DNA of 25,267 nt. It comes from a virus. The position numbers were made by a program, and so were the translations under genes. Positions 3,970-25,267 of the stretch are shown one piece after another. The stretch's first letter is position 1. Each line of letters opens with the position of its first letter. The notes below the pieces were generated by a model. That model was given only the letters and a program-made list of their open reading frames with translations, was not told the origin of the DNA and did not search any database. The stretch is from IMG/VR virus record IMGVR_UViG_3300027712_000138, positions 1 through 25,267 of that record; one strand, given 5' to 3'.

Positions 3970-4199
3970 GGGGTGCCCTCGCCGTCTTCGTTGTCATCAA
4001 AGGAAGCACGTCGGGCTTGTTGCATGTTGTAGTCCTCGATGAACGTGGCGATGCGTTCAATGGTCGCGTAGGCGGCGATGGCGTAGGTGTCTTGCGTGCG
4101 TGTTCGGTTGCACTCCGGATGGGTTCCGTCGCAGTCGCACAGGAAAGCGAACGGTGTGAAACGGTCACGGATGAGGTAGGGCAGGTCGTGGATGTTCAT
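3966..4199 (-). CDS. Hypothetical protein between primase and helicase (77 aa)
   Basis: A small acidic-tailed protein. ATG 4199 overlaps the prim-pol stop (ATGA) and its stop overlaps the next start in the same way. A Cys/His cluster FLCDCDGTHPEC near residues 19-30 may bind a metal. A helix (TYAIAAYATIERIATFIEDY) follows, then an acidic end (DDNEDGEG). The location inside the replication cassette suggests an accessory role in primase/helicase work, inferred from context only. Confidence 0.72.
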   Translation of the reverse strand: MNIHDLPYLIRDRFTPFAFLCDCDGTHPECNRTRTQDTYAIAAYATIERIATFIEDYNMQQARRASFDDNEDGEGTP

Positions 4200-4819
4200 G
4201 CCGCGACCTTGAGCGCGTTCCAGTGCTCGATGAGGCGGGTGGGTGTGTTTGACCACCGGTAGATCGAGCCGTTGGGGTGGCGTGATGGCGGGGCCACGAT
4301 GTAGCCGTTGGCTCCTCGGGTGTCGGTGCCGGCGCCAAGTTTGCCGGCGCTGTTCTTGATCCCGATGACGGGCAGGATGATGTGGCGACCGCGACCGGTG
4401 ATCGACATCGCGAGCATGTCGTCCACGAGTCGCTCTTGCATGGCGAGCATCGACTCGAAACCGTCGGAGCCGTCGAAGTCGATGACGTCGAAGGTGCGAC
4501 CGGTGGGGATGCCGATGTTGGCTTGTGGTGTTTTGCTCCACCACGCGCGCACGGTGTCGATGTCGCTTGTGGCGATCTCGAGCCACTTGCCCAGTGGCTG
4601 GTTCTTGGTGCCAGGGGCGAGCGGGAAGATGTCCACGCCAAGGCTGGCGTAGTAGAGCGCGTAATCGGTCAGCGCGGTGGGCGATGCAAGCTTGGTGTCG
4701 CGTTCTTGGTCTTCTTGGTCTAGTTGCGCGAGGAAGGCGTCCTTGTCACTGGCGGCGTCGTAGGCCGCGAGCAGGTCAAGGTCGTCTCGGTCGCGCCATA
4801 GTGGTGATGTGTTCGGCAT
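4196..4819 (-). CDS. Bifunctional primase-polymerase (archaeo-eukaryotic primase, prim-pol domain)
   Basis: This 207-residue protein is a stand-alone prim-pol domain that would make primers, and possibly extend them, for phage replication. The three AEP motifs are present: DVIDFDG with catalytic D114 and D116; TGRGRHIIL at 141-149 with H146; and GTDTRGANGYIVAPPS at 164-179, the third catalytic region with D166/R168. The first 45 residues are an extra charged helical extension ahead of the usual LxxALxYASLGVxIFPLxPGxK opening. The helicase normally found on the same chain is encoded two genes later. A ribosome site (AAGGGG) lies seven bases ahead of ATG 4819. The gene follows a long hairpin at 4874-4921. 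Confidence 0.93.
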   Translation of the reverse strand: MPNTSPLWRDRDDLDLLAAYDAASDKDAFLAQLDQEDQERDTKLASPTALTDYALYYASLGVDIFPLAPGTKNQPLGKWLEIATSDIDTVRAWWSKTPQANIGIPTGRTFDVIDFDGSDGFESMLAMQERLVDDMLAMSITGRGRHIILPVIGIKNSAGKLGAGTDTRGANGYIVAPPSRHPNGSIYRWSNTPTRLIEHWNALKVAA

Positions 4820-4873
4820 TGGTTGACCCCTTCGGTCGGTGTCGAGCAGGTGGATGGTCGCGCTGTGGGGTTC

Positions 4874-4921
4874 GGTGACCGGCTCGCCTTGACTGAGAGG
4901 TAGCGAGACGAGCCGATCACC
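4874..4921. other. Long hairpin upstream of the prim-pol gene
   Basis: Two 13-base arms (4874-4886, GGTGACCGGCTCG, and 4909-4921, CGAGCCGATCACC) pair along their whole length except for one wobble, with a 22-base loop. This is the main content of the 113-bp gap between the ssDNA-binding-like gene and the prim-pol gene. No T tract follows on either strand, so a simple intrinsic terminator is unlikely. A regulatory RNA structure, a processing site or a replication-origin hairpin are possible. Confidence 0.6.
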
Positions 4922-4932
4922 GAGGGGGTGCG

Positions 4933-5319
4933 CTAGAACGGAGCAGCAATCTCCGGTTGCGCCTTCAGGTAAGCCCTGGCCAGTGTCTTGTCGGCCTCGG
5001 TGCTATCGGTGATAATCCAAGCGCCCTTCGCCCCTGGCTTAGATGGCGGAAGCTGACCGACTCGGCCCAAGACCATCCCGCCGATCTTCGGCTTGAGCTG
5101 TGGTCGTAGCCCCTTGCCGAAGATCAAGATGTCGTCAAAGGTCTGGCCCTTCAGGTCACCATCGAGCACGGCGACGTTGGCGCGGATCGCATTGGTCACA
5201 CCATGCACGGTGACCATGTCTATCTCTTCGCCTAATACGTCGACGAGGATCAAGCCGCCGTTGAGTTCGTTCCAGTCCACTCCGGTAAATGAGGCTGGAT
5301 TTGAGAATTGGTCGGTCAT
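4933..5319 (-). CDS. ssDNA-binding-like early protein (128 aa)
   Basis: The sequence resembles a conserved group of actinophage early proteins with an OB-fold-like beta content: NELNGGLILVDVLGEE, TVHGVTNAIRANVAVLDGD, FDDILIFGKGLRPQL, GGMVLGRVGQ, then WIITDSTEADKTLARAYL. These are commonly found beside exonuclease and primase genes, and I infer a ssDNA-binding or replication accessory role. The group is often left as hypothetical, so function is tentative. ATG 5319 overlaps the upstream stop as ATGA. The gene ends just before the hairpin at 4874-4921. Confidence 0.72.
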   Translation of the reverse strand: MTDQFSNPASFTGVDWNELNGGLILVDVLGEEIDMVTVHGVTNAIRANVAVLDGDLKGQTFDDILIFGKGLRPQLKPKIGGMVLGRVGQLPPSKPGAKGAWIITDSTEADKTLARAYLKAQPEIAAPF

Positions 5320-5663
5320 GCGCTTCTTCCTTCTTTTGTTTTGACCTCAGGCTCCGGTCGGATCGAGGTGGTATGCACCTGCTCGCACTGTTTGCAGCGG
5401 ACAGGTTTCTCGCAGTGGTGTGCTGCGAAGATTGGATAGCCGTGCAGTTCGTTCAGCATCGGGCGCTCCTTGTATTGCTCGCCGCGTCGCTCGAAGAACG
5501 GGCCGGTCAACTTCTCGCCGATGCGCACCGGCTCGGGGAATAACTCCCAGACGAAAATCGGGCCATTGGGTTCGGTGGCGACCTGGATGGTGGGCTGACC
5601 GCAGCGCTGGCACTTTGATGGCTTGCCCACGATGCCGGCGTTGACTGCTTGCCTGCCGGTCAT
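5316..5663 (-). CDS. Zinc-ribbon hypothetical protein (115 aa)
   Basis: A small protein with two metal-binding half-sites: KCQRCG near residues 17-22 and HHCEKPVRCKQC near 81-92. Between them is a beta-rich stretch (TIQVATEPNGPIFVWELFPE). The C-terminus is charged and probably disordered. ATG 5663 overlaps the upstream stop as ATGA, and its stop overlaps the next gene the same way. It lies between an exonuclease and an ssDNA-binding-like protein, so a nucleic-acid role is plausible, but no family name is certain. Confidence 0.72.
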   Translation of the reverse strand: MTGRQAVNAGIVGKPSKCQRCGQPTIQVATEPNGPIFVWELFPEPVRIGEKLTGPFFERRGEQYKERPMLNELHGYPIFAAHHCEKPVRCKQCEQVHTTSIRPEPEVKTKEGRSA

Positions 5664-5794
5664 GGCGTGACCTCGGTGACTTCATACAAGTCAGCGCGAC
5701 ACTGTGGGCAGAAGGGCACCTCTTCGCCGGTGTCCAGGGTGAGCCAACCGTCGGCGGTGTCCTTGCACGCCGAGCACTTCAGCAGCCGACTCAT
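5660..5794 (-). CDS. Small zinc-ribbon protein (44 aa)
   Basis: A 44-codon gene with ATGA overlaps at both ends (5794 and 5663). The product carries two CxxC knuckles, KCSAC near residue 6 and FCPQC near residue 28, separated by an 18-residue beta hairpin (TADGWLTLDTGEEVP). This is a minimal rubredoxin-like or zinc-ribbon fold. Such one-ribbon proteins are frequent in phage replication operons; the partner is unknown. Confidence 0.78.
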   Translation of the reverse strand: MSRLLKCSACKDTADGWLTLDTGEEVPFCPQCRADLYEVTEVTP

Positions 5795-6576
5795 GCGCCC
5801 CACGCCTTGACCAAAGACTTCGAGCCAGCACGTGCAGCTCGCACTTCGCGCGCGAGTTCGCAGAGCAGGCCGGCGGCGCCGATGTTGACTTCGTAGACCT
5901 TCGTCTTGCCTTCACCGCGTGGGATGTGGATCAAGATCGCGGTGGAAAGGTCAGCGCCAAGGGGTGAAGTTTCGCCGGTCTTGATGTCGTAAAGTTCGGC
6001 GCCGGCGTAGCACGCCAACTGGATCGCGGTCGACAGTGGCCGCAACGTGCCGGTCTTCTTATCGCCGACGAGTTGGCGGCCTTGTCCGTCGATGTAGAGG
6101 TGGTCGAAGGTGCCGGCGACACCTAGTTCATGGTTGACCACGAACTGCTCAGTGGCCGCGACCACGAGACCGGCGTCTTGGATGGCGCGGTGATAGGAGT
6201 CCACGTCGTCGCGCATGTGCTCGGGGGTGTGGTGATCCTTGCCTGGCTCAGTGAAGCGGTGGATCGCGGTGCCATAGTCGGCTTTGATGTTGAGCATCGC
6301 GGCATCGGCGGCGCGCTCCACGACCTCGTTCAAGCCTTTGTCGGCGTATTCCATGCCCACGATCAGGTCGCACAGTTCACGGCGCGCAGCCAAACCAAGG
6401 GCGACGTGCTTGGCTTTCCAGGTGGCCAGACCACCACCATCGTCCAAGGTTGAAGCGAAGGTCGAGATGCGGGTGTAGCCCTGCACTTTGCCGGTGCTCG
6501 GGTTGAGGATCATGGGTCGGCCCCAGCCGTCGCGCTCGATGTCAGCGTCCACACTCGTGAACTGGTCGTCGGTCAT
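5791..6576 (-). CDS. PD-(D/E)XK family exonuclease (Cas4/RecB-like)
   Basis: A 261-residue nuclease of the phage recombination/replication type. Visible core: GTAIHRFTE with H106; EQFVVNHELGVAGTFDHLYI with E143 and metal-binding D158; LVGDKKTG with D172 and K174, the D-x-K of the active site; and the trailing QLACYAGA helix (Q186, Y190) that follows the site in RecB-type nucleases. The family cuts DNA ends for recombination or repair. The next genes encode a zinc ribbon and an ssDNA-binding-like protein, which fits a recombination set. ATG 6576 overlaps the upstream stop as ATGA. Confidence 0.88.
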   Translation of the reverse strand: MTDDQFTSVDADIERDGWGRPMILNPSTGKVQGYTRISTFASTLDDGGGLATWKAKHVALGLAARRELCDLIVGMEYADKGLNEVVERAADAAMLNIKADYGTAIHRFTEPGKDHHTPEHMRDDVDSYHRAIQDAGLVVAATEQFVVNHELGVAGTFDHLYIDGQGRQLVGDKKTGTLRPLSTAIQLACYAGAELYDIKTGETSPLGADLSTAILIHIPRGEGKTKVYEVNIGAAGLLCELAREVRAARAGSKSLVKAWGA

Positions 6577-9192: not shown

Positions 9193-9420
9193 TTAGGCGA
9201 TGCGCGCGATGGCGCGGCTGGAGGTGAAGCGGTTGACCTCGGTGGCGGTGATCCGCATCCGTGGGCGGGGCGAGGCGGAGGTGGAGACGTCGATGGGGTT
9301 CAAGTCGCCGGAGCCGATGAGGGCGTACACGGTTTGGCGAGATACCGAGAGGAGCTGGGCCACCTGGGGGATGGTGTAGATGGCGATGGCTTCGGCTTCT
9401 GGTGCAGGGTCTTTAGTCAC
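9193..9420 (-). CDS. Excisionase-like / early HTH protein (75 aa)
   Basis: A MerR-type HTH_17 DNA-binding protein: IYTIPQVAQLLSVSRQTVYA then LIGSGDLNPIDV and a winged segment RMRITATEVNRFTSSRAI. It is the first gene of the early operon, read away from the repressor, which is where excisionase or Cro-like proteins are placed. It could bend attP DNA to direct excision or repress lysogeny genes. Start GTG 9420 has no ribosome site, but a promoter with 17-bp spacing ends just ahead of it, so the message is probably leaderless. Confidence 0.82.
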   Translation of the reverse strand: MTKDPAPEAEAIAIYTIPQVAQLLSVSRQTVYALIGSGDLNPIDVSTSASPRPRMRITATEVNRFTSSRAIARIA

Positions 9421-9428
9421 GAGATGGA

Positions 9429-9457
9429 ACGATAAAGGCTAGTGCTTAGTACCACAA
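9429..9457 (-). promoter_or_regulatory. Early leftward promoter
   Basis: On the minus strand TTGTGG (9457-9452) and TATCGT (9434-9429) are 17 bp apart, and the expected start of transcription falls at or next to GTG 9420. Operator-like CTAGTGCTTA sequences lie inside the spacer and over the -35 box, so a bound repressor would block it. Confidence 0.55.
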
Positions 9458-9468
9458 GCACTAGTGCT
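9439..9468. promoter_or_regulatory. Operator-like sites O1/O2
   Basis: CTAGTGCTTA (9439-9448) and the palindrome AGCACTAGTGCT (9457-9468) share one half-site in opposite directions. They overlap the early promoter. A third inverted copy, TAAGCACTAG, occurs at 9575-9584. These are the best candidates for repressor binding sites. Confidence 0.55.
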
Positions 9469-9492
9469 CAAGTCGTGCCTGAGCGCCGGCGT

Positions 9493-9530
9493 GTCTAATA
9501 CCGTCTAATGGTGTCCGAGGGTGTCCAAAG
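9493..9530. repeat. 38-bp repeat, switch copy
   Basis: A 38-bp segment matching 31 of 38 positions with 11704-11741 beside attP. It contains two GTCTAA-type units. It lies between the two operator groups of the divergent control region. It may be a binding site for excisionase, integrase or repressor shared between the genetic switch and attP. Confidence 0.6.
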
Positions 9531-9565
9531 TTCGGTCAAAGGTAGGTCAAGGATTCGCGGACACC

Positions 9566-9594
9566 TTGACCTCCTAAGCACTAGGCTGAACACT
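9566..9594 (+). promoter_or_regulatory. Probable repressor promoter with operator O3
   Basis: TTGACC (9566-9571), a 17-bp spacer and a weak AACACT -10 (9589-9594) lie ahead of the repressor gene. The operator-like TAAGCACTAG (9575-9584) fills the spacer, suggesting self-control. The -10 box is poor, so the exact promoter is uncertain. Confidence 0.4.
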
Positions 9595-9650: not shown

Positions 9651-10055
9651 ATGGAATACGACATGGCACGGCTCGGCCAAGCGGTGGCCGATGCCCGCCA
9701 GGGTTTGGGTTTGAGCCAGCGAGAGCTCGGCGACCTCAGTGGGGTCAACTCCGACCGCATCTCGCGCATCGAGCGGGCCCATGCCGCCGAGACAAGCCCA
9801 CGCTGGAACGCCAGAGGCTGGGTCAACTTGGAGACCTCCCTTGGATGGGCTGTCGGTTCAGCCAAACGCATCGCCCTGGGTGGTGAGCCAGTGCTGGCCG
9901 CGAACGTGAACTACGGGACGCACTTCGTCGAAGGCGATGCCCAAGCCATCGTCGCGGGCCCTAAGGCCGCGCGCGAAGCCCTCGCCTTTGAGTTGATGAG
10001 GCAAGCCGAGCAGCTGCTGGCCGAAGCCCGACGTCTACGGGCCCAGAACGACTAG
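9651..10055 (+). CDS. Immunity repressor-like HTH protein (134 aa)
   Basis: An XRE/Cro-C1-type DNA-binding protein transcribed opposite to the early operon, the classic position of a prophage repressor. The HTH covers about residues 8-42 (LGQAVADARQGLGLSQRELG, then DLSGVNSDRISRIER). An unusual Trp-rich stretch (RWNARGWVNLETSLGWAVG) follows, and the C-terminus is a long helix (AAREALAFELMRQAEQLLAE, ARRLRAQND) that could dimerise. There is no LexA/CI-type protease domain, so induction would not be by RecA-stimulated self-cleavage. ATG 9651 has GAGG four bases upstream; ATG 9663 is an alternative start. Confidence 0.85.
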   Translation: MEYDMARLGQAVADARQGLGLSQRELGDLSGVNSDRISRIERAHAAETSPRWNARGWVNLETSLGWAVGSAKRIALGGEPVLAANVNYGTHFVEGDAQAIVAGPKAAREALAFELMRQAEQLLAEARRLRAQND

Positions 10056-10100
10056 ACACCAATCTAGGAAAAGGACTAGACGTTGTCGGTGTCTAGCCTT
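10052..10100 (+). promoter_or_regulatory. Mutually exclusive hairpins after the repressor gene
   Basis: CTAGACACC (10052-10060) is a perfect complement of GGTGTCTAG (10088-10096), while the same right-hand segment can instead pair as AAGG(A)CTAGAC (10071-10081) with GTCTAGCCTT (10091-10100). The two folds exclude each other. No T tract follows. They could act as an attenuator or processing switch for the downstream gene and integrase, or simply be DNA operator sites. Confidence 0.45.
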
Positions 10101-10169
10101 AGTGTCGCAATTCACACCCACTAGGCCAATAGGGGAGAACCACGTGAGCGTTCAGGACTCTCGTATTGC

Positions 10170-10181
10170 GGGGGGGGGGGG
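10170..10181. repeat. Homopolymer of 12 G, possible phase-variation tract
   Basis: A run of exactly 12 G lies between a strongly served GTG start (10144, preceded by AGGGGAG) and the ATG (10188) of the small gene in front of integrase. With 12 G the GTG frame ends after 15 codons, its TGA overlapping the ATG as ATGA. With 10 or 13 G the GTG would be in frame with the whole gene. It could be a contingency tract or a sequencing artefact. Confidence 0.75.
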
Positions 10182-10187
10182 CAACGG

Positions 10188-10436
10188 ATGACCATCATCT
10201 TGAAGTGCTCCTTGACCGCCGGCTCCGGTGTTGTGACCATTGAGAAGGACGACCTGCTCCTGATTGTGATTTTGATGGATACCCCGACCATGACGGCGAT
10301 CAACCTCGTCCAGGGTTTGGTCAAGCGCAAGCACGTCGCAGCGGTCAATGAGCAGTGCAGGCAGTGGATGGTCTATGCCGACGCTAAGGCGATCGCGCTG
10401 GCGTCCCACGACTTACTAGTTGAGACGGCGATGTAG
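10188..10436 (+). CDS. Small gene between repressor and integrase (82 aa), with alternative GTG start
   Basis: The reading frame uses typical high-GC codons and ends in TAG directly before the integrase ATG, so the two genes are co-translated. The product starts MTIILKCSLTAGSGVVTIEK and is beta-rich (DDLLLIVILMD), followed by a helical stretch (TMTAINLVQGLVKRKHVAAV, NEQCRQWMVYADAKAIALAS). No family is recognised. The ATG at 10188 follows the 12-G tract, which itself may imitate a ribosome site. A GTG at 10144 has a better ribosome site but is one base out of frame at this G count. Its position suggests a role in lysogeny or in setting integrase level. Confidence 0.65.
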   Translation: MTIILKCSLTAGSGVVTIEKDDLLLIVILMDTPTMTAINLVQGLVKRKHVAAVNEQCRQWMVYADAKAIALASHDLLVETAM

Positions 10437-11489
10437 ATGTATCTAAGGCAACTCCCCTCAGGCTCGTGGCGGGCAACCGTCAGGCTGCCCGATGGCACAC
10501 GGCGCGAACGCAGCCACAAGGTCAAGTCCATCGTCAGGGGCTGGGCGCTGGCGCTGGAAGGCGACATCGCCTCGGGCAACTTCGTCGACCCTGACCGTGG
10601 CAAGTTGACCCTGAACGCCTGGCATGAGCGCTGGAGCGCCGCGCGCGTAGTCACCGAAGCCACCCGCCGCAACAATGCCTCGGTGTGGTCGTGCCACGTC
10701 GCCGACCAGTGGGGCCAGCGCGCGATCGGCTCCATCACCCGCTTGGAAGTCCAAGAGTGGGTCAGTTCGTTGGCCAAGGATTACAGCGCGAGCATCACGC
10801 ACAAGTCCTACACGTTGCTCGCTTCAATGATGAGGGCCGCCGAGGCTGAGCGGTTGATCAGCGCCAGCCCTTGCGTATCTATTCGGCTGCCCCGCGAGAA
10901 GAAGGGCAACTTGCGCTTCATCACCAAGGAAGAGGCGGCTCGACTATTGGCCGAACTTGATGAGCCCTACCGAACCCTTGTCGAGCTTGGCCTGCACTCC
11001 GGCCTTCGGATGGGTGAACTCACCGGCCTCGATGTCAAGAACGTGGACTGGCTCAATAAACAGGTGACCGTCACCCAAGTCATGACCCGCCACGAGGGGC
11101 TCAGGGACTACCCCAAGACCAAGAACAGCCGGCGCGTCGTTCCGGTACCGACCCACGTCATCGAGGCGATGTCGCGCCTAGTCAAGGCCGAGTCCCGCCA
11201 CACTGGCCTGCTCTTCACGGCGCCCGAGGGTGGCCCTATCCACGACCTGCTCTTCGCTCGGCGGGTATGGAAACCCGCGCTGGAGCGTGCCGGCATTGAA
11301 CACTGTGGGGCTCACACGATGCGCCACACTGCCGCCTCGTGGCTTGTCCAAGACGGCGTTGACCTGTACAGGGTCAGCCAGATGCTTGGGCACGAGTCGC
11401 TCAATACCACGATGAAATACGCGCACCTTCACCCAGGCGCTCACGATGACATCCGTGCAGCGTGGGATCGCATGAACGGCGTCCGCTGA
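10437..11489 (+). CDS. int: Tyrosine-recombinase integrase
   Basis: A full-length (350 aa) phage integrase that recombines attP with the host attB. The N-terminus (MYLRQLPSGSWRATVRLPDG) is an arm-binding-type domain; residues 55-140 are the SAM-like core-binding domain (LTLNAWHERWSAARVV, ITRLEVQEWVSSLAKDYSAS). The catalytic domain has R191 (SGLRMGEL), a Lys near 227-229 (YPKTKNSRR), H293 and R296 (HTMRHTAASWL), H319 (LGHESLNTT) and nucleophile Y328 (KYAHLHP). All key residues are present. The start directly follows the stop of the small upstream gene. A run of eight T (11490-11497) follows the stop. attP lies immediately downstream. Confidence 0.95.
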   Translation: MYLRQLPSGSWRATVRLPDGTRRERSHKVKSIVRGWALALEGDIASGNFVDPDRGKLTLNAWHERWSAARVVTEATRRNNASVWSCHVADQWGQRAIGSITRLEVQEWVSSLAKDYSASITHKSYTLLASMMRAAEAERLISASPCVSIRLPREKKGNLRFITKEEAARLLAELDEPYRTLVELGLHSGLRMGELTGLDVKNVDWLNKQVTVTQVMTRHEGLRDYPKTKNSRRVVPVPTHVIEAMSRLVKAESRHTGLLFTAPEGGPIHDLLFARRVWKPALERAGIEHCGAHTMRHTAASWLVQDGVDLYRVSQMLGHESLNTTMKYAHLHPGAHDDIRAAWDRMNGVR

Positions 11490-11506: not shown

Positions 11507-11526
11507 TGACGCACGTATGACGCACG
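11507..11526 (+). repeat. Left arm-type sites (two TGACGCACG copies)
   Basis: TGACGCACG occurs twice, at 11507-11515 and 11518-11526, eleven bases apart, i.e. about one helical turn. The same pair is found on the other side of the tRNA-derived core. This is the usual layout of high-affinity integrase arm sites. Confidence 0.75.
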
Positions 11527-11565
11527 CCCGTGCTTCGGCGCTAGTGATTATCTCCAGAAAAGGCG

Positions 11566-11592
11566 CGGAGCCCTTACAGAATAAGGGCTCCG
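11566..11592 (-). terminator. Terminator carried with the tRNA 3' end in attP
   Basis: A perfect 11-bp stem (CGGAGCCCTTA paired with TAAGGGCTCCG, loop CAGAA) followed on the minus strand by CGCCTTTTC. It lies directly behind the CCA end of the tRNA fragment, as a tRNA gene terminator would, so the phage may carry host tRNA plus terminator in its core. Confidence 0.7.
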
Positions 11593-11593
11593 A

Positions 11594-11637
11594 TGGTGGG
11601 CGATACAGGACTTGAACCTGTGACCTCTTCCGTGTCA
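11594..11637 (-). other. attP core: 3' part of a tRNA-Val (GAC) gene
   Basis: Read on the minus strand, this is the 3' portion of a tRNA gene: anticodon loop with GAC, the 3' anticodon stem GGAAG, variable region, the T arm with GGTTCAAGTCC, acceptor strand and a templated CCA. The 5' half of the tRNA is missing: the base pairs before the loop no longer fit (CCGGA where CTTCC is needed). This is how an attP that rebuilds the host tRNA on integration looks. Phage genes lie on both sides, so it is attP and not a prophage junction. Identity with the host may extend through the terminator at 11566-11592. Confidence 0.85.
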
Positions 11638-11703
11638 GTCCGGTTCACCGCTAGTTTGAGGCTAGTGTTTAAGCGGTTCTCCCAGTGTGGGCGCGGGGTC
11701 GTT

Positions 11704-11741
11704 GTCCAATAACGTCTAGTGGTGTTCGATGGTTTCCAAAC
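11704..11741. repeat. 38-bp repeat, attP copy
   Basis: The partner of 9493-9530 (31 of 38 positions identical). It ends three bases before the right-hand TGACGCACG pair, so it lies within the right arm of attP. Confidence 0.6.
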
Positions 11742-11744
11742 TCC

Positions 11745-11764
11745 TGACGCACGTTTGACGCACG
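11745..11764 (+). repeat. Right arm-type sites (two TGACGCACG copies)
   Basis: TGACGCACG at 11745-11753 and 11756-11764, again with an 11-bp period and the same orientation as the left pair at 11507-11526. Together they bracket the tRNA-derived core and define an attP of about 260 bp. Confidence 0.75.
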
Positions 11765-21989: not shown

Positions 21990-23236
21990 GCGCGACTCAC
22001 TCTCGTCTCGTTTGGGTTAATTCGTGCCACCGATGGTGAAGAAGCCAAAGCGGTCACGGTTGAGGCCGTTGCCAAAATTCCGACCGCGCCAGCGGCTGAC
22101 GCCGTGATCGTTGAAGTCGCTCCCACCTTCAAGCCTTGCAACAAGACGGCGGTGCCGGTGGCCGTGATGCTTGAACTGGCGGTGGCCGAATAGGTCAAGT
22201 TTAAGGCTGCCGTGCCCGACGCGGTGATGCTCGAGGTCGCGGTGATTGCAATGGGCGAGGTTGTGGAAGCCGCTGCCGTGCCGGTTCCGGTGATGCTTGA
22301 GGTGGCGGCTAGGGCCTGCGTGCTTGATGCCGCAGCTGTACCGGTGGCGGTGACCGTTGCCGAGGCGGTGATACCGACGGTCTTGGTCGCCGCTGCCGTA
22401 CCCGTGGCGGTAATGCTCGATGAGGCAGCGGCGTTCGCGGTGTAGGTCAGCGAGCCGGTGCCGGTCGCGGTTTCTGTTCCCGTTGCTGAACCCGTCAGGG
22501 TTTTGGCTAGGGATGCTGTACCTGTCGCGGTGATCGTGCTAGTACCTGACGCGGTATACGCGGTACCAGATGAGGCAATCTTCACCTCAAGGACAACATA
22601 ACCCCAAGCAGCGGAACCAGCAGCAGCAGAATCAAGGTTCGCTGTGTAGTTTCCAGCAGTGGTCGCTGATTTCCAACCAACTAATGCAGATCCGCTAGCC
22701 AAAGCATAAGCCGTATAGGTAAGGTCCGATGATGAGGGTGCGCTAGCAGATCCACCATCAACACCCGAAGCATAAACATAAGCGTTCGCGTTAGTGGTAG
22801 TGAGTGTGGAAGTTGTCAGATTGTTTGTGGTACTGGTTCCAGAAAGTTTTGCACCAATAGGTGATGACGTATTATGTCCCGTGACTTTGGCAACTGTTAA
22901 CCCAACAAACGCACCGTAGGAACCGTCAGAACCACCGGGTAAGGTGACTGAACGTGAAGAACCAGTTGATGTGACAGCAACAGTCCAAGCCTGTGTGATT
23001 GGATCACCGAAATAACCTGAACCAGAAGAAATACCGAGGTCGGTTATGGTTCCCCAAGCCGAGTCTAAGGTGGGTGGCCCAGCACCGATTGCAGATTGAT
23101 CCCCAGCAATGTCGGCCACTGTTGCCGTGACGATCAGTAAATCGCCAGAAGAAAGAGAAAGCCCAGAAACAACAGGTGAACCTGCATAAGATGTTGCTTC
23201 AAACTTAGCACCAAGACCTGTGAAAGCAAGAGCCAT
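21986..23236 (-). CDS. Repeat-rich fibre-like structural protein among the head genes (416 aa)
   Basis: The first 220 residues form a beta-rich domain (GLSLSSGDLLIVTATVADIA, SRSVTLPGGSDGSYGAFVGL, AAWGYVVLEVKIA). After residue 225 the protein is an Ala/Thr/Ser/Gly low-complexity array in which SITATGTA-like units recur every 20 residues (GT at 239-240, 259-260, 279-280, 299-300, 319-320, then slightly shifted). This looks like a beta-helix or fibre stalk. It may decorate the capsid or form a head fibre. The N-terminal part is distinctly richer in A/T than its neighbours, pointing to recent transfer. No named family recognised. Confidence 0.72.
   Translation of the reverse strand: MALAFTGLGAKFEATSYAGSPVVSGLSLSSGDLLIVTATVADIAGDQSAIGAGPPTLDSAWGTITDLGISSGSGYFGDPITQAWTVAVTSTGSSRSVTLPGGSDGSYGAFVGLTVAKVTGHNTSSPIGAKLSGTSTTNNLTTSTLTTTNANAYVYASGVDGGSASAPSSSDLTYTAYALASGSALVGWKSATTAGNYTANLDSAAAGSAAWGYVVLEVKIASSGTAYTASGTSTITATGTASLAKTLTGSATGTETATGTGSLTYTANAAASSSITATGTAAATKTVGITASATVTATGTAAASSTQALAATSSITGTGTAAASTTSPIAITATSSITASGTAALNLTYSATASSSITATGTAVLLQGLKVGATSTITASAAGAVGILATASTVTALASSPSVARINPNETRVSRA
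22024..22570 (-). repeat. About nine 60-bp coding repeats
   Basis: The tandem array encoding the 20-residue units of the fibre-like protein. Units are degenerate at codon level, so they are old or under selection for the protein pattern. They keep a nearly exact 60-base period over five to six copies and drift by one or two codons after that. Confidence 0.72.
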
Positions 23237-23239
23237 CAG

Positions 23240-23539
23240 TTAGCCCCCGTTCTGGTCAATGATCTCCTGAAGAACCTGCGACACAGACAACGAAGTATCC
23301 GCATACTGTTGCTGGTATCCCTTCAAGATGCGAAGCAACGTGTCAGTTGTCGCACTACGGCGCATCGTCAACAAAGCGTTCATAAACTCTTGGGCATCAG
23401 CGGTTTGATGAATAACCAAACCAGTGATCTCAACAACGGCCTGAGCAGCCGAAGGAGAAACCTCGGCAACAGTTGTCGCGGTGTCATCAATGACTGAGGC
23501 AACATAAGCCTCAATCTGGGCAGTGCTCACCTCAGCCAT
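23240..23539 (-). CDS. Hypothetical protein (99 aa)
   Basis: An all-helical protein (STAQIEAYVASVIDDTATTV, QEFMNALLTMRRSATTD, LLRILKGYQQQYADTSLSVS) with a polar end. Codon use is A/T-leaning, like the first part of the next gene, so the two probably arrived together. ATG 23539 follows the previous stop by two bases; a GTG three codons later is possible. It could be a chaperone or trimerisation partner of the fibre-like protein; this is inferred from context only. Confidence 0.65.
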   Translation of the reverse strand: MAEVSTAQIEAYVASVIDDTATTVAEVSPSAAQAVVEITGLVIHQTADAQEFMNALLTMRRSATTDTLLRILKGYQQQYADTSLSVSQVLQEIIDQNGG

Positions 23540-23541
23540 GA

Positions 23542-23928
23542 CTAAACCGCAATCGGTGTCAGAGCCAACGTCAGTGAGGTCAGCTGGAGCGAGTCACCGC
23601 TGACGACAGACTTGCTTGCAGTCAAAGCCACCGACCACAAGAACGTCGTGCCGGCGCTGTCCCAAAGGCTGATGTGGGTGATCGTCTCAGTCGCGGTCAT
23701 TGACCACGCCGTTGGCGACGACGACAAAGCCATCGAGCCAGCCGAGGCTGCCGCGAAAGTTAGGGACTGCTTCGTGGTGTTTGATGAAGCCGCAGTCGTA
23801 CCCGACGCGCCTGGGTCAGCGGTGTGGATGGCGACCTTCATCGTCCCAGCCGTAAACGTGGTGCCGGTACGACCAAGGGTTTCAAGCAACTTGTTAGCCG
23901 TGTTAGCGGCGGATAATCCGACGGTCAT
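23542..23928 (-). CDS. Phage structural protein of the tail-fibre/decoration type (128 aa)
   Basis: The sequence belongs to a widespread group of short phage proteins with the pattern NKLLETLGRTGTTFTAGTMK, VAIHTADPGASGT and THISLWDSAGTTFLWSVALT, ASKSVVSGDSLQL. They are beta-sandwich proteins found near head or tail-fibre genes and usually labelled structural. Position near the capsid gene suggests a decoration or head-fibre role. ATG 23928 overlaps the upstream stop as ATGA. Confidence 0.72.
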   Translation of the reverse strand: MTVGLSAANTANKLLETLGRTGTTFTAGTMKVAIHTADPGASGTTAASSNTTKQSLTFAAASAGSMALSSSPTAWSMTATETITHISLWDSAGTTFLWSVALTASKSVVSGDSLQLTSLTLALTPIAV

Positions 23929-24026
23929 ACCGTTTCCTCATTCTCGATAGTTTGTGCAGGGATGACATCCATCGAAGCCTCGGCAACGATGGACGCGATA
24001 ACTTGAAACTCGTTTGGGTCAGACAT
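23925..24026 (-). CDS. Small hypothetical protein (33 aa)
   Basis: A 33-codon gene: MSDPNEFQVIASIVAEASMD then VIPAQTIENEETV, an acidic amphipathic helix. Its start overlaps the upstream gene by eight bases and its stop overlaps the next ATG as ATGA. The ribosome site is weak. The overlaps suggest it is real, but its size keeps confidence modest. Confidence 0.5.
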   Translation of the reverse strand: MSDPNEFQVIASIVAEASMDVIPAQTIENEETV

Positions 24027-24210
24027 CGGCGGCCGTCGCCTTCTTGCGGACGCGCTTAGCAGCTGACGGGGCGCCAGTGGTCTCAACTTCGGGAGCCACT
24101 CCAAGGGCGGCAAGTTCTGCCTGGATAGCCGCGATGATGTCGCGCTTGCCTGAGCGTTCGGCTCCGGCCAGTTCGCGCTTGTACGCCTCGATGAGCGTGG
24201 CGTTGTCCAT
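24019..24210 (-). CDS. Small charged protein after the capsid gene (63 aa)
   Basis: ATG 24210 has a strong AAGGAG site eight bases upstream. The product begins with a helical hairpin (NATLIEAYKRELAGAERSGK, RDIIAAIQAELAALG) and ends in a basic tail (AAKRVRKKATAADV). Short helical proteins of this pattern follow the capsid gene in many actinophages, with no assigned role. The ATG at 24288 lacks a ribosome site. Confidence 0.72.
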   Translation of the reverse strand: MDNATLIEAYKRELAGAERSGKRDIIAAIQAELAALGVAPEVETTGAPSAAKRVRKKATAADV

Positions 24211-24302
24211 TGAGTGCTCCTTGTAGTTCGGGGCTTGGCGTGCATACCCACCCACCGGCTTGAGCCGATGGGTGAGCAAACTCGTCAAGAGTTAGGTGGC
24301 GA

Positions 24303-25267
24303 CTAGAAGGTTGGCGTGGCCAAACCGGTGCCGGTGATGAGTCCGATTGACTTGGGGTAGCGCTCGGTGATGATTGCCGCGTAGTTGTACAGGCGGAAGA
24401 GCACGGAGAGCTGGTCGGCCTTTGTCTCGCGGAAGGCTTCGGCGCGCTGTTGACCCTCAAAGAGGAACAAGTCGGAGAAGCGTGCAGCGATGATCGTGTC
24501 TTGGTTTGTGCCAGCGCCCGAGTTCGTCGGGATGTTGGCGTCAACGTAGACAGGCAATCCAAGCAAGGTGCCAACTGAACCTTCGCCGACGACGTCGGTC
24601 GAGAGTGCGGTTCCGTTGTAGATGCCTTGGGCGGTAGGAACCACCAAGGGGCGGTTGCTTGAGTCCAGGGCAGCCAAGAAGAAGCCCCAGCGGCGTGGGT
24701 GCATGACGATGGCGTCGGCCGGCAGGTAGCGGTTGCTTGCGATCTGCTGGAGAACGTCGGCGATCTTTGGGTATGCCTCGGCCACTGTTGGGCTGGCGTC
24801 GGTGTAGGTGCTGGCCGACGTTGAGGACACGTTCAAGATACCCTTCTTGCCGGTGGCGTTGTTGCTCAAGCAGTACACGTCCAAGCGGGCGGCGTAGTCA
24901 GCGGCCAAGTCGGCGAGGATCACTTGGTCAAGGTTGACCGGTGACTGCTCAACGAGCTGGACGGAGACGACCTGCTGGCCGGCGATGGTTGAGACGTTGC
25001 CAACGACAGAGCTGGAAACGACGTCGGTGTTGCTGACGGAGCTGTTTTGTGAGGACTGGGCAGCCGTTGACGTACCGGTCGTAATTTGTGGCAGGTTGAT
25101 GCTGTCGGTGCCGGTCGGCAGCGGCATCTTGCTGAACAAGTCAGCCGTCACGCGACCAGCGCGCGCGAGCTTGACGTAGTCCTGAACCATCCACAGCGGT
25201 GGCACGAACTCGCCGGCGCCGCCGTCGGTGGTGGAGATGGCGCGAACTTCAGCGTCAGAGCGCAGCA
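24303..25267 (-). CDS. Major capsid protein, HK97 fold (5' end outside the window)
   Basis: The reading frame is open through the right edge (LRSDAEVRAISTTDGGAGEF, VPPLWMVQDYVKLARAGRV), so the start codon is outside. The core has the family marks: DSINLPQITTGTSTAAQS, a long spine helix (LADLAADYAARLDVYCLSNN), AIVMHPRRWGFFLAALDSSN, then LLGLPVYVDANIP and the late FLFEGQQRAEAF strand. It forms the icosahedral head. At least 321 residues are visible. A protease and portal gene would be expected upstream, outside the window. Confidence 0.9.
   Translation of the reverse strand, partial: LRSDAEVRAISTTDGGAGEFVPPLWMVQDYVKLARAGRVTADLFSKMPLPTGTDSINLPQITTGTSTAAQSSQNSSVSNTDVVSSSVVGNVSTIAGQQVVSVQLVEQSPVNLDQVILADLAADYAARLDVYCLSNNATGKKGILNVSSTSASTYTDASPTVAEAYPKIADVLQQIASNRYLPADAIVMHPRRWGFFLAALDSSNRPLVVPTAQGIYNGTALSTDVVGEGSVGTLLGLPVYVDANIPTNSGAGTNQDTIIAARFSDLFLFEGQQRAEAFRETKADQLSVLFRLYNYAAIITERYPKSIGLITGTGLATPTF

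Follow-up and report, generated by a model that had tools for sequence, protein, structure and literature searches.

The stretch of DNA analyzed here (the window) is an IMG/VR virus record of 25,267 bases, for which a prediction had been made from the sequence alone. It probably represents a temperate actinobacteriophage with an actinobacterial host, as suggested by the presence of a WhiB gene (PF02467, E 1.3e-18 in a family search) and by the kin of its integrase, which are found in Gordonia phages and in actinobacterial genomes. The lysogeny cluster runs rightward in the order repressor-like gene, leader, 82-codon gene, integrase, and arm-like repeats flanking a stretch that resembles a tRNA 3' end (Table 1). 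The repressor-like protein weakly resembles immunity repressors of Gordonia phages (30% identity across 92%), and no consensus -35/-10 promoter was found for the cluster. The inverted repeat between the repressor-like gene and the leader could be an operator. A further inverted repeat, CTAGTGCTT/AAGCACTAG, lies at 9436-9587, such that the two repeats bracket the repressor-like gene; both may be operators. The integrase has in its neighborhood the repressor-like gene, an excisionase-like gene and the arm-like repeats 3' of its own gene. The region 11507-11764 is probably attP, with a core that is recognized by eye only: the stretch 11590-11640 looks like a tRNA 3' half on the minus strand, and neither ARAGORN nor Rfam reports a tRNA there.

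Table 1. Features of the lysogeny cluster in the window, and poly-G tracts in methyltransferase genes of three other viral contigs.
Feature	Position	Strand	Remarks
Divergent excisionase/HTH_17 gene	9193-9420	-	HTH_17 E 1.8e-9; phrog_66 excisionase E 1.9e-6; begins leftward lytic genes
XRE-type repressor-like gene, 134 aa	9651-10055	+	HTH_3 E 3e-5; opens rightward lysogeny cluster
Inverted repeat CTAGACACC ... GGTGTCTAG	10052-10096		Perfect 9-nt arms, 27 nt apart; between repressor gene and leader
Shine-Dalgarno-like AGGGGAG for GTG 10144	10131-10137	+	-7.2 kcal/mol against 16S tail
Leader ORF at 12 G, 15 codons (VSVQDSRIAGGGGNG)	10144-10191	+	N-terminal extension of the 82-aa protein at 10 or 13 G
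12-G homopolymer	10170-10181	+	Candidate slippage site, also Shine-Dalgarno-like for ATG 10188; -9.7 kcal/mol
82-codon gene	10188-10436	+	Codon score +0.35; no homologue found; ahead of integrase
Tyrosine integrase, 350 aa	10437-11489	+	PF00589 E 4.6e-29; phrog_1 E 1e-66
Paired TGACGCACG repeats	11507-11526 and 11745-11764		Flank tRNA-3'-end-like stretch near 11590-11640
Methyltransferase poly-G tract, 15 G	L192:6688-6702	+
Methyltransferase poly-G tract, 12 G	L200	-
Methyltransferase poly-G tract, 14 G	L243	-

The start of the integrase lines up with the starts of four homologues, and the catalytic residues of tyrosine recombinases (R191, H293, R296, H319 and Y328) are invariant in the alignment. 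The 82-codon frame ahead of it is, by its codon usage, very probably a real gene: it scores +0.35 bits per codon versus -1.46 and -0.81 in the other plus-strand frames, and its third-position GC is 0.83. As the original prediction had it, the two genes touch, the TAG at 10434-10436 being followed directly by the integrase ATG at 10437-10439. No relative of the 82-aa protein was found in viral contigs, GTDB genomes, phages, plasmids, Pfam, PHROGs, NCBIfam, PADLOC or PDB, and a single-sequence AlphaFold2 model (pLDDT 51) was too poor for use.

The same prediction placed a run of 12 G between a GTG at 10144 and the ATG of the 82-codon gene, and every one of these coordinates is correct; the run comprises exactly 12 G, and no other run of G or C in the window is longer than 6. 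It also credited the GTG with a strong ribosome site, and the AGGGGAG is indeed separated from the GTG by a six-base spacer. Likewise exact is its arithmetic for 10, 11, 12 and 13 G. Read directly from the sequence at the observed length, the GTG frame encodes VSVQDSRIAGGGGNG and then meets a TGA (10189-10191) that overlaps the ATG as ATGA. With 10 or 13 G the GTG frame enters the gene in frame, giving 96 or 97 residues, and with 11 or 14 G it stops after 32 or 33 codons at a TGA (10241-10243) located 53 bases beyond the ATG. The locus thus has the change of frame looked for in a phase-variable locus, and it also has the homopolymer length, since a first-order Markov estimate gives 0.0046 runs of at least 12 G expected in the window. 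The run is therefore not an accident of base composition, and it probably slips during copying.

Runs of this length are very rare among relatives of the phage. In loci of capsid and early-gene relatives (918 kb), runs of G or C reach at most 7 bases. The surroundings of 160 related integrases (1.08 Mb) contain three runs of at least 12, none of which is located where a gene preceding the integrase begins. One of the three (L307) follows closely upon a stop codon, a second (L379) is found toward the 3' end of an HTH gene, and the third (L328) is 47 bases away from the end of its contig; none has a layout like that of the present locus.

A miscount by the metagenome assembly would make the locus quite ordinary: were there in truth 10 or 13 G (or fewer), the gene would start at GTG 10144, with neither overlap nor switch. 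Homopolymer lengths that differ between two sequencing methods have been reported (PMC10877375), many viral poly-G runs lie at contig ends, as artefacts would, and no second copy of the locus was found to confirm the count of 12. However, this run lies ~10 kb inside its contig, and the sequences that flank it are unique: a ribosome site precedes it and a codon-biased gene follows. In addition, a separate IMG/VR contig (L005) shares 99.96% identity with 2461 bases of the window, although it spans only 22807-25267 and not the tract. By its sequence L005 is a close relative of the phage that was assembled a second time. We regard a miscount as unlikely, while giving it appreciable weight.

Capsid relatives of the phage are plentiful. 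In the collections searched there is no second sequence of the locus and no other record with this stretch, and a pattern search of viral contigs (in which the record of the window itself was perhaps not included) returned no other tract length with the same flanks. In the syntenic relative L093 the flanking genes are conserved, and the corresponding interval (4105-6012) is occupied by small unrelated genes; neither the repressor, nor the 82-aa protein, nor the integrase has a match there, and a homologous tract is absent. This comparison suggests that the lysogeny cluster can be exchanged as a module.

The energies of the ribosome sites bear on what the run may do. Computed with a generic 16S anti-Shine-Dalgarno tail, which may differ from that of the host, they are -9.7 kcal/mol for ATG 10188, -7.2 kcal/mol for GTG 10144 and -2.7 kcal/mol for the integrase; 1.25% of random start codons of the window reach the first value and 4% the second. 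Six bases separate the end of the G-run from ATG 10188, for which the run itself is the strongest Shine-Dalgarno match, and the energy at this ATG is identical for every length from 8 to 14 G. The proposal of two starts therefore stands insofar as both are credible, but it had overlooked that the run is the ribosome site of the second. Another gene of the phage, starting at 23236, also has a GGGGG-type Shine-Dalgarno sequence (-8.6).

As a general feature of gene starts in viral contigs, poly-G runs were rejected: where an ATG follows at 3-9 bases, as it does in 62 interior viral poly-G tracts, it opens a long ORF in 35% versus 29% in the background (p 0.16), and this lack of enrichment indicates that poly-G is not, as a rule, positioned to act as a ribosome site. 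An RNA switch in the leader was likewise unsupported. The fold of the leader is no more stable than that of shuffled sequence (z -0.8), so that a structural switch is not indicated, and it has no Rfam match.

The flatness of the energy from 8 to 14 G would also be expected if the run were a neutral expansion within an ordinary G-rich ribosome site, its length irrelevant and the GTG frame incidental, and the other long poly-G runs near related integrases, which follow stop codons or sit near gene or contig ends, have no evident role. Neutrality must nevertheless accommodate the rarity of such runs in the phage's relatives, and must treat as coincidence a GTG with a good Shine-Dalgarno sequence in the same leader; we consider it unlikely.

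The original prediction went further and took the tract for a switch, in which GTG 10144 is the true start, the number of G decides whether the gene is read, and the integrase coupled to it, and with it lysogeny, vary stochastically between particles. The ribosome site of the GTG is good, phase-variable genes usually have their tract placed between the start and the main frame, the integrase has a weak site of its own and abuts the gene, and Campylobacter phages are known to carry hypermutable polyG tracts, as cited in PMC10877375. Against this, ATG 10188 has a stronger ribosome site that is formed by the tract and does not depend on its length, the leader stop overlaps that ATG at the observed length and so favors restart, and neither a variant nor a relative with the tract turned up in the collections searched. 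A literature search under several such phrases found no paper on a phase-variable integrase or phase-variable lysogeny. What holds of the proposed slippage switch is the exactness of the frames and the fact that long G runs are known slippage sites; an on/off switch of the gene is not supported, off-states being doubtful when the ATG keeps a site of -9.7 kcal/mol at 8-14 G. We judge such a switch improbable. Also considered was slippage during transcription, or frameshifting by the ribosome, at the run; either would yield mixed products from one genome.

The explanation that we tentatively prefer is that the run is a real, slippage-prone homopolymer whose changes in length would alter the N-terminus of the protein and moderately tune output, without turning the gene or the integrase fully on or off. 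The run would then serve as the Shine-Dalgarno sequence of ATG 10188 and at the same time as glycine codons for the frame from GTG 10144, and ribosomes could begin at either start. With 12 G, those that began at the GTG would end at the TGA overlapping the ATG and could restart there; with 10 or 13 G they would make the same protein plus an N-terminus of 14-15 residues that contains glycine; and with 11 or 14 G they would overrun the ATG out of frame. Slippage would thus mainly add or remove these 14-15 residues and alter the flow through the leader. Since ATG 10188 keeps its own ribosome site at all lengths, the 82-aa protein is expected at every length.

The weak ribosome site of the integrase, together with its abutting the 82-codon gene, makes translational coupling between the two plausible, as the original prediction supposed, yet in the energy calculations with the generic 16S tail no state of the tract clearly silences the integrase. 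Stochastic control of lysogeny is accordingly unsupported, as the site of the ATG should provide the 82-aa protein, and flow downstream of it, whatever the number of G. That the phage hedges genetically between lysis and lysogeny, such that slippage of the tract alters a small regulator and the integrase coupled to it and leaves a fraction of particles with a different propensity to integrate, seems to us very unlikely.

Known systems put the locus in perspective. Hypermutable polyG tracts have been described in Campylobacter phages (Sorensen et al., 2021, Cell Rep 35:109214; cited in PMC10877375, PMC9311878 and PMC11868660). As far as the title and these citations tell, the resemblance consists of a phage genome, a long G homopolymer and a predicted change of frame by slippage; unlike the present locus, which is known by its sequence, the title reports variation and phenotypic diversity, and here the tract belongs to a lysogeny-cluster gene whose start codon, located after the tract, has a ribosome site of its own. 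Variation of G-tracts is also documented in actinobacteria, for glpK (PMC11898584) and for pglX of S. coelicolor, which is phase variable (PMC4365076). In pglX, too, the length of an actinobacterial G tract sets the reading frame of the gene (PMC4365076), but that is a host defence gene with a tract of 8 G and measured switching, whereas here a phage gene has 12 G. In the 5'UTR of M. tuberculosis espR, the gain of one G in a poly-G tract changes translation (PMC11898584). Both loci have an actinobacterial G tract that precedes a start codon and by its length could alter translation; however, the espR tract lies 144 bp upstream, was modelled via leader folding and was tested with reporters (PMC11898584), whereas the present tract is 6 bases from its ATG, resembles a Shine-Dalgarno sequence and lies in a leader of unremarkable fold. 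Because hypermutation of phage polyG tracts and actinobacterial G-tracts (pglX, glpK, espR) are already known, the locus is best described as a candidate of a known phenomenon in a new place. In M. smegmatis, indels of 1-2 bases have been shown not to be repaired by NucS (PMC11551767). If the tract varies, a hypermutable G tract would be situated among the lysogeny genes of an actinobacteriophage whose hosts leave small indels uncorrected by mismatch repair, and stochastic control of integration could be tested directly. Even if its length is constant, the locus illustrates that poly-G beside a start codon can be the ribosome site of that codon, and that frame arithmetic alone is no proof of phase variation.

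A separate observation concerns C5 cytosine methyltransferases (PF00145), which in three viral contigs have poly-G at the same site, directly after the PCQDIS motif. The reading frame of the enzyme is kept at the lengths in L192 and L200; at that in L243 it is broken, and the front half is joined to an overlapping long frame. From sequence this looks like a phase-variable phage methylase, and because the site is shared by three contigs, with lengths both in and out of frame, its tract is a more promising candidate for phase variation than the locus in the window. A second long frame (MSWLFSQALVEE..., L192:6443-7297 on the plus strand and L200:2437-3147 on the minus strand) overlaps nearly the whole methyltransferase and crosses the G tract.
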